From NCBI GenBank assembly GCA_030529135.1, contig JAUMXO010000007.1, forward strand, positions 1 through 46,129: a DNA stretch of 46,129 nucleotides. Reading direction: 5' to 3'. The notes beneath the pieces are model-generated. The model was not told the DNA's origin and ran no database searches. It saw only the letters and a list, made by a program, of their open reading frames with translations. Within the stretch, counting starts at the first letter, position 1, and every line of letters starts with the position of its first letter. This stretch comes from Candidatus Saccharimonadota bacterium (GTDB taxonomy: Bacteria > Patescibacteriota > Saccharimonadia > Saccharimonadales > Saccharimonadaceae). This document shows, piece after piece, positions 25,956 through 32,165 of the stretch. The position numbers and the translations under genes are program-made.

Positions 25956-25993
25956 ATATCAAAAAATCACCTCTAGGGGTGATTTTTTGATAT
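25956..25993. terminator. Bidirectional rho-independent terminator between nusG and rplK
   Basis: A long inverted repeat (ATATCAAAAAATCACC and GGGTGATTTTTTGATAT around CTCTAG) with T-runs on both strands, placed exactly between two convergent stop codons. Confidence 0.9.
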
Positions 25994-30455: not shown

Positions 30456-30839
30456 ATGGCTACAGATATTAAAAAATTAGCTGAAGAATTGGTAAACCTT
30501 ACCGTTCTTGAAGTAAATGAACTCAAAAATACCCTAAAAGATGAATATGGCATCGAGCCAGCTGCTGCTGCAGTAGCTGTCGCTGCTGGTCCAGCTGCTG
30601 CTGGTGATGCTGCTGCCGATGAAGGCAAGACCGAATTCGACGTAGTTTTGAAAGACGCTGGCGCTCAGAAGATCGCAGTGATTAAAGCTGTAAAGGAAGC
30701 CACTGGACTTGGTCTTGGCGAAGCTAAGGCTATCGTAGATGGCGCTCCTGCAACTGTGAAAGAGAAAGTTGCTAAGGATGAAGCCGAAAGCATGAAGAAA
30801 GCTCTTGAAGAAGCTGGTGCAACCGTAGAGCTCGCTTAA
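30456..30839 (+). CDS. rplL: 50S ribosomal protein L7/L12
   Basis: A 127-aa factor-binding stalk protein. It has the N-terminal dimerisation helices (1-35), an Ala-rich hinge (about 37-55) and the C-terminal domain with [34 protein letters not shown] and the end AGATVELA. Length and motifs are typical. AAAGGAAAGG lies about 6 bases before the ATG. Instead of an ordinary terminator, a 118-base inverted repeat follows (30868-30985). Confidence 0.98.
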
Positions 30840-30867
30840 TTTTTTAAGTCGATTAGTTGTAGCTTTT

Positions 30868-30985
30868 AAAATTGGAATAGTGTTTTTAAGGACATTTCGG
30901 GGCGCGGCAGCGCGAGAATTAGTGCCGGCCGCCCATGGCGATGGGCCGGCTGGACACGTGTCCTTAAAACACCTATTCCAATTTT
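30868..30985 (+). repeat. 118-base long inverted repeat with G+C-rich core (large hairpin, possible terminator or RNA element)
   Basis: The left arm 30868-30894 and the right arm 30959-30985 pair over about 26 positions (AAAATTGGAATAG, then TGTTTT and AAGGACA) with one-base bulges. Between them lies a 64-base core far richer in G+C than its surroundings. The core has its own hairpins: GCGC/GCGC with loop GGCA (30902-30913), and a stronger one at 30924-30950 with GCCGG/CCGGC and CCCAT/ATGGG. T-residues after the right arm give it a terminator-like end. It may be a terminator, a small structured RNA or a miniature mobile palindrome. Confidence 0.75.
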
Positions 30986-30988
30986 TTG

Positions 30989-30997
30989 TGCTATAAT
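30989..30997 (+). promoter_or_regulatory. Extended -10 promoter, putative leaderless start
   Basis: TG 30989-30990 and TATAAT 30992-30997. ATG at 31005 is 8 bases from the last T. The box begins 3 bases after the large hairpin. Confidence 0.7.
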
Positions 30998-31004
30998 TAA
31001 TCTT

Positions 31005-32165
31005 ATGGAAGATTTTGACTATTTAAGTGAGGGTGAAGTATATTTAGACGCGGCTTGCCAAAGCTTGAGACCAAAACCAGTTATTGAGGCTTTGGAAAAA
31101 TATTACACGCGTCATAATTCTTGTGGTGAGCGAGTAAAATACGAGTGGGGGAAAATTACTGATAGTTTGGTAGAGGAAACTAGAGAAAAAGTTTTGAAAT
31201 TCTTAAAACTATCACCTCGCAAGTTTACAACTTCTTTTACGCTCAATACTACTTATGGAATTAATTTAATTTTATCGCAGATTGATGATACTAAATTTAA
31301 AAAAGTCATGACGAGCGAGATAGAACACAACTCGCCGTTTCTTGCTACTTTGGCTTTTTCCGAAAGAACTGGCCTACCACGCGAACTAATAAAAAGGAAT
31401 AATGATGGTTCTATCCCCATTTCTGAATATGATTTTGACAAAACAATTGTAGTAGTGAATTCTGCTTCAAATTTTGATGGACGAAAGCTCCTCAACATAA
31501 AAGACCTATGTAAAGCTGTGCATAAAGCTGGTGGAATTTTAATTATCGACGCTGCACAAGCTATGGCTCACTCTTCCGATATTCTAAAAGGCGTAGAAGT
31601 GGATGCAATTTGTTTCTCGGCTCACAAAATGTATTCCGCTTCACTTGGTGGAATCGTTTGGCGAGATGAATTGGATAAAGTGCTTAAACCTTTGTGGCTA
31701 GGTGGAGGTATGGTAGATGATGTAGAACGCGAAAGCTACATTTTGTCGGCGGAGAATAAAGAACACCGCTATACAAGATTTGAATCTGGTTTGCAGGCCT
31801 GGGGGGAAATAATCGCCTTAGGGCAAGCAATTGATTGGCTTGAACATCTGCCTAAAAAAGATTGGAAAAACTTAGAAAATAATACTAAGGAGATATTTGA
31901 TCTTCTTAGTAATTCTTCGAAAGTCCACTTAATTAACAAAGAGCCTAATCCCACAATGTCATTTTACGTAGATGGGCTCGACTCGCATCTTTTGGGTGAA
32001 GCTTTGTCGCGCGAAAATATTATGGCTAGAACTGGCTATTTCTGCGCACACTATTATCTAGATCATGTCTTAAACTTGCCCCCACTTATCCGTTTTTCAT
32101 TTGGCATCCACAATCGTCCAGAAGATGTTGAAAAAATAGAAAAAGTGATGGCAAAAATTGTCTAA
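31005..32165 (+). CDS. SufS-like cysteine desulfurase (class V aminotransferase fold)
   Basis: A 386-aa PLP enzyme predicted to take sulfur from cysteine, forming alanine and an enzyme persulfide. Visible features are the PLP-contacting IEHNSP (106-111), IDAAQ with Asp182, the Schiff-base lysine Lys208 in CFSAHKMY, and ARTGYFCAHYY (about 342-352). The last of these carries the persulfide cysteine in the position of the RxGHHCAQP block of SufS. It is slightly shorter than typical SufS (about 405-410 aa). No SufU, SufE, SufBCD or IscU gene lies next to it, so it may serve tRNA thiolation rather than Fe-S assembly. It is leaderless, from a promoter immediately after the large hairpin. Confidence 0.85.
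   Translation: MEDFDYLSEGEVYLDAACQSLRPKPVIEALEKYYTRHNSCGERVKYEWGKITDSLVEETREKVLKFLKLSPRKFTTSFTLNTTYGINLILSQIDDTKFKKVMTSEIEHNSPFLATLAFSERTGLPRELIKRNNDGSIPISEYDFDKTIVVVNSASNFDGRKLLNIKDLCKAVHKAGGILIIDAAQAMAHSSDILKGVEVDAICFSAHKMYSASLGGIVWRDELDKVLKPLWLGGGMVDDVERESYILSAENKEHRYTRFESGLQAWGEIIALGQAIDWLEHLPKKDWKNLENNTKEIFDLLSNSSKVHLINKEPNPTMSFYVDGLDSHLLGEALSRENIMARTGYFCAHYYLDHVLNLPPLIRFSFGIHNRPEDVEKIEKVMAKIV

Follow-up and report, generated by a model that had tools for sequence, protein, structure and literature searches.

A genus-specific family of probably mobile palindromic elements with host-copied arms in Saccharibacteria

Selfish DNA residing in frame in essential genes has been discussed as an oddity since about 2000; it is known mainly from Rickettsia and Wolbachia, and to our knowledge no mechanism has been described for it. 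Published accounts place Rickettsia palindromic elements (RPE) in frame in queA (tRNA ribosyltransferase-isomerase) and in a gene for an excinuclease ABC subunit (PMC3767692), describe how one site in orthologous genes can be occupied by elements of different families (PMC3767692; review PMC10969869) and report that the arms lose identity over time (PMC6649704). Long hairpins with near-perfect arms are also found in protein genes of Nematomorpha mitochondria, for which no common core has been described, and as byp elements in Magnusiomyces mitochondria, where the ribosome skips them (PMC6649704). MITEs, including RUP and the SPRITE of Streptococcus pneumoniae, are short, non-autonomous, dispersed and structured, and SPRITE resembles a rho-independent terminator (PMC10969869). 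For Saccharibacteria and Patescibacteria, no report of such elements was found in the open-access literature, the coverage of which is incomplete.

The palindromic repeat described here is a dispersed element of 100–150 bp that lies in frame, without stops, in protein genes. As far as published accounts of RPE and their Wolbachia counterparts go, it appears to be RPE-like in kind, a functional likeness drawn from features and not from aligned sequences: both are palindromic repeats of this size with several families, in frame in essential genes as well as intergenic; both have queA and an excinuclease ABC subunit gene among their hosts, with different families at one orthologous site; and both live in small-genome obligate associates.

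The window analyzed is a stretch of 46,129 nucleotides from a Candidatus Saccharimonadota genome (assembly GCA_030529135.1, contig JAUMXO010000007.1, positions 1 to 46,129; the element and the features around it are on the + strand). Between rplL (30456–30839) and a cysteine-desulfurase-like gene (31005–32165), the latter of which served to locate the orthologous site in relatives, is a hairpin element of ~118 bp (30868–30985) composed of a left arm (30868–30894), a branched core and a right arm complementary to the left one (30959–30985). A first-pass annotation, made from the sequence alone, had reported a near-perfect 118-base hairpin with about 26 outer pairs enclosing a 64-base, G+C-rich core with two internal hairpins. 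This description is accurate: the arms, 64 nt apart, form 26 pairs interrupted by a single bulge on either side, G+C is 28% in the arms and 72% in the core, and the two hairpins occupy 30896–30918 and 30922–30957. The RNA fold of 30858–30995 reaches -70.8 kcal/mol compared with -39.1 ± 4.0 for shuffled sequences (z = -7.9; 0 of 200 as good), and the opposite strand also folds strongly (z = -7.3).

The right arm terminates in a T-run (30982–30987) that, read from the sequence together with the stem, would form a plausible intrinsic terminator behind the end of rplL; relatives with an empty site have a plain terminator here. A simple terminator scan does not list the window copy because its loop is too long. 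Just beyond the element is the putative extended -10 of the next gene (TGCTATAAT, 30989–30997), and in relatives, too, the terminator is followed by a similar TATAAT. The closeness of this promoter had been recognized at first pass, with a spacing of 3 bases that needs correction; the extended -10 starts 4 bases, and the TATAAT 7 bases, after the right arm. Other terminators in the window had been sized at 25–40 bases; the best other terminator-type inverted repeat is a near-perfect palindrome of 38 bp between two convergent genes (25956–25993), an ordinary bidirectional terminator.

A search of the window's own genome with the hairpin yielded further copies of the core, the outer stem not recurring, and strong matches were present in many of 35 other genus genomes checked. 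A covariance model (R1) built from 79 copies detected the element in 57 of 60 genomes of the genus (Saccharibacteria, Nanosyncoccus-like), with 0–23 copies per genome and 13 in the own genome; a hunt for copies in the genome and its relatives had been proposed at first pass, and the sequence is clearly not unique. G007, G077 and G005 are rich in copies, and G020, G033 and G082 have none. The sole copy in the window (30875–30978) scores 95.7 bits (E ~4e-31), as one of the 79 sequences used for training. Outside the genus, the model found copies in 1 of about 116 genomes of the same order, and three other families of the phylum have weak but well-formed relatives of the element. The element family is thus a genus-specific, dispersed repeat. 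When the 19-mer CGGAGCGCGGCAGCGCGAG was scanned against 84,980 species genomes, nearly all of the matches listed were Candidatus Saccharibacteria from animal guts, Nanosyncoccus alces among them. Two of the matches from other lineages hold real elements, in a der-like GTPase gene of a genome labelled Nomurabacteria (L130) and in a dprA-like gene of termite-gut Saccharibacteria (L158), both gene names being read from translations. The full element was found solely in Saccharibacteria and other Patescibacteria among the matches examined. Viral spread was rejected, as three viral contigs, along with two Bacteroidales contigs, match the 19-mer alone, without the element; 19-mer matches in high-G+C genomes were taken as chance. 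Hairpins of the same layout, with nearly perfect arms of at least 20 bp and without a long through frame, occur in distant Patescibacteria families (L369 and L371 in G383, L370 in G407).

The 79 copies align without gaps over 104 columns. The core consists of two hairpins. The short one has a GGCA loop and a GGA/GA internal loop (GGG replaces GGA in the window copy); the long one has two bulges and 15 pairs, 7 of which have two-sided changes across copies. Across the alignment, 97.8% of core-pair cells form pairs, and 9 of 22 core pairs have changed on both sides (93 cells vs. a shuffle mean of 22; 0 of 500 shuffles as high). The first-pass annotation had suggested looking for compensatory stem changes and held that a unique sequence with no covariation and no detectable RNA would come down to a plain terminator; the family is dispersed and its stems covary. 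Sequence conservation fades ~10 nt beyond the core, and the outer arms are different in every copy; in the window copy, the inner ~10 nt of the left arm are common to other copies, and its outer part is copy-specific, host-like and A-rich. Pairing between the arms stays at ~0.85 to ~30 nt from the core and is at background farther out (83 copies; arm ends were judged by this per-position pairing, a gapped arm-extension score having given no usable ends). With arm pairing that stops near 30 nt, the unit measures ~118 bp, matching the window copy. Outside the inner 13 nt, the longest perfect run has a median of 13, compared with 6 for arms taken from different copies. The biologically relevant boundary is that between the repeat (core and inner stem) and the copy-specific outer stem, rather than the edge of the visible hairpin.

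In about 70 of the 91 distinct copies, an open, stop-free frame runs through the element and is flanked on either side by coding sequence; this class is defined by the open frame itself. Host genes have housekeeping functions and include, among others, trmD, queA, mnmA, lepA, ligA, uvrC and alaS. A profile check covering ten genes confirmed the hosts as TrmD, QueA, MnmA, LepA, UvrC, LigA, AlaS, TatD, a P-type ATPase and a RarA-like ATPase, in most cases by matches that flank the insert, and NCBIfam profiles for TrmD, QueA, MnmA, LepA, LigA, AlaS and TatD match around the insert in one frame. No frame shift or stop was found in any copy inside a gene. The element occurs in either orientation relative to the gene (30:39, p = 0.34). 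Four of the six core frames are open in 83–90 of the 91 copies; the remaining two are open in 21 and 35, and insertions in genes make little use of phases in which most copies contain stops. Where no through frame exists, the copy usually sits at the end of a gene, frequently between two convergent ones; L192, truncated at the end of its contig, is probably a coding copy. Of the copies in the own genome, 11 are in open frames, the window copy and L349 are not, and L346 is likewise truncated by a contig end. In-frame elements are presumably translated into an Ala/Pro/Gly/Arg-rich stretch (predicted peptides include PAGPSPRAAGANSR), and the open frames are consistent with this. For annotation, it would mean that additional stretches of this composition in proteins of Saccharibacteria come from the element and should not automatically be taken for functional domains.

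Filled and empty sites could be compared at three loci. trmD was recovered from 57 of 60 genus genomes; 17 of these align continuously across the insert region, the others being shorter or different there, and 30 loci were read. At filled sites the insert lies in the loop between AR-FA and HYIILCPHYEG, while at empty sites the flanking motifs are 60–87 nt apart. The inserts are family-1 elements (the family modelled by R1), in both orientations, and other hairpin families; a few long loops (L215–L218) show no evident hairpin. The 16 nt just before the HYI codons are, in eight family-1 inserts, an inverted copy of conserved upstream host codons at 10–16 of 16 positions (16/16 in L202), and a ninth insert (L212) has 8/16 inverted matches in the ungapped test. 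The best inverted match at empty sites is 5–9/16, with scattered positions. The closer inverted match in filled than in empty sites indicates that one arm is host sequence and that the other was newly copied from it. Whichever way the core is oriented, the host-derived arm lies toward the same side of the gene, and arms of orthologous trmD copies show two-sided changes. queA likewise has filled and empty sites within the genus, with the same variety of inserts, and the filled and empty sites of these two genes make the insertion mechanism testable. The rplL site holds a plain short terminator in five relatives (L269, L271, L273, L278, L287), a family-1 element in either orientation in three (L263, L265, L268) and other hairpin families in the same place in four (L266, L270, L281, L284). 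Occupancy of a given site varies among related species. There was no sign of target-site duplication, direct repeats being no longer than in mismatched controls.

Core identity is higher within genomes (0.907) than between them (0.879; permutation p = 0.0002), and some genomes carry, at different sites, copies whose 70-nt cores are identical and whose arms are unrelated (three copies in G026, two pairs in G077). These identical cores with unrelated arms, together with the empty sites, argue for movement inside genomes. In trmD of two species (G006 and G009), identical cores occupy the same site, so part of the pattern is vertical inheritance. Comparing one genome per species, we infer from sequence that the element has moved recently. 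Profile searches of the genus genomes for Y1_Tnp and RVT_1 uncovered no transposase or other partner. Y1_Tnp is absent from the own genome and from 58 of 60 genus genomes; RVT_1 is present in 38 of 60 and absent from G000 and the copy-rich G025, G026, G060, G070 and G079, an absence that is not absolute in draft genomes. As several copy-rich genomes lack RVT_1, a resident reverse transcriptase seems unnecessary. Reverse transcriptases of the genus often lie in open frames of about 380–400 aa, and none was found in the own genome. REP sequences are GC-rich hairpins with a GGAG-like foot and in this resemble the Saccharibacteria element. They are, in general, 20–40 bp long and mainly extragenic (PMC3733652), and a REP/RAYT system was rejected given the distribution of Y1_Tnp. 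The element shares the short, non-autonomous, dispersed and structured character of MITEs, and the window copy is terminator-like as SPRITE is; unlike most MITEs, it has neither conserved outer terminal inverted repeats nor target-site duplications, and in these two defining features it departs from them.

We think it likely that the window hairpin belongs to a non-autonomous family of mobile palindromic elements that is specific to the genus and has host-copied arms. The mobile unit would be the branched GC-rich core, i.e., the short and the long hairpin, closed by a semi-conserved stem of ~10–13 bp; after insertion, site-specific sequence would extend the stem by ~15–20 bp, with host DNA as one arm and an inverted copy of it as the other. 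Within loops of essential proteins, the element could persist in frame because four of the six core frames are almost always open, and at gene ends it would persist as, or within, a transcription terminator, as the window copy may do behind rplL. Movement may proceed as a folded single strand, with the free 3' end of the hairpin snapping back to copy the adjacent host strand; snap-back copying would yield inverted arms without direct target duplication. Because the strands are not alike in structural detail and yet either orientation is found in genes, the folded strand probably matters in DNA and not in mRNA; we also infer that the element is selfish rather than a host tool.

The arms may point to a new mode of DNA insertion, in which a folded strand is joined by one end to a host 3' end and its free 3' end copies ~15–20 nt of the adjacent host strand by snap-back, producing site-specific inverted arms and no target duplication, perhaps with no dedicated transposase; we put this forward as a tentative and rather doubtful proposal. 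A simple polar snap-back insertion misfits the trmD data, in which the side of the host arm does not change with core orientation; this could be explained if the core had inverted between its arms once inserted. If snap-back insertion were true, the same architecture in the G383 and G407 matches would make these elements a phylum-wide class.

Polymerase template switching has been proposed for the coding palindromes of Nematomorpha mitochondria (PMC6649704), and a mutational process of this kind, making or perfecting hairpins at quasi-palindromic seeds while occasional recombination spreads a common core, would fit the near-perfect site-specific arms, the inverted host-codon copies and two-sided arm changes at trmD, and the sharing of single trmD, queA and rplL sites by several unrelated hairpin families. 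We consider it unlikely as the full explanation, since a core of ~70 nt is common to dozens of unrelated sites, and identical within one genome despite unrelated arms, and since arm length stops sharply near 30 nt; template switching may well make the arms, but cannot alone move the core. Insertion into the loops of pre-existing host hairpins would instead make the arms older than the core. The rplL copies do sit where relatives have a plain terminator hairpin; the empty trmD sites, however, are without the needed arms (scattered matches at 5–9/16 vs. 10–16/16 in filled sites), which renders loop targeting very unlikely.

Selection for a functional RNA, acting as a terminator or mRNA structure in host-gene expression, is most easily imagined for the window copy, with its stem and T-run behind rplL at a site where relatives keep a terminator, and both the intergenic copies at gene ends, often between convergent genes, and the strong covariation are in line with it. 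Yet most copies are within coding sequences and lack the orientation preference that an mRNA function would impose, and occupancy of a given site differs among related species; we regard this explanation as decidedly unlikely for the family. Of the three readings offered at first pass, an unusual terminator describes the position and probable secondary role of the window copy, which stands in for the plain terminator that relatives have behind rplL and retains a T-run, and fails for a family that is mostly inside coding genes. A stable small RNA from the rplJL transcript is not supported, given both orientations in unrelated genes, and a dedicated small RNA gene was rejected on the same orientations, the many host genes and the lack of any Rfam family match at the gathering score or at E up to 1. 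The miniature mobile palindrome is supported by the many unrelated sites, the empty orthologous sites, the identical cores with different arms and the covarying stems. Long stable hairpins in essential genes, with an outer stem that draws the flanks together, could also be removed or skipped after transcription, by intron-like splicing or by translational bypassing as in Magnusiomyces mitochondria, and hence stay untranslated. Skipping needs no kept frame, though, and the in-gene copies are free of frame shifts and stops, hardly use the stop-carrying phases and present either element strand in the sense direction, all of which makes this extremely improbable.

The mobile palindromic family with host-copied arms differs from RPE, as described in published accounts, in its defined branched core, its copy-specific host-derived arms and its host phylum, Patescibacteria. 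Unlike Magnusiomyces byp elements (PMC6649704), the Saccharibacteria elements keep the frame, and their common core has no described counterpart in the Nematomorpha palindromes. This second case, more regular and apparently independent, comes from a phylum of ultra-small epibionts and suggests that in-frame selfish DNA is a general outcome in reduced genomes, and the site-specific inverted arms provide a structural clue to the insertion of such elements.

The other hairpin families that share insertion sites with family 1 (trmD loop, L206, L210 and L211; queA loop, L235–L242; rplL site, the four loci given above) have cores unlike that of family 1 and similar GA/GA closing pairs and site-specific arms; together with family 1 they seem to form a superfamily. 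In several lineages, an element occupies the linker that joins the two GTPase domains in a Der-like protein (L130, L343, L088), which suggests that the same tolerant loops are used repeatedly. Compound elements occur in queA (L244) and in two genes of the own genome (L344, L345), each with an extra GC-rich stretch (GCTCGCCCCTTGGGACGCG...) nested, in frame, in the loop of the long hairpin.
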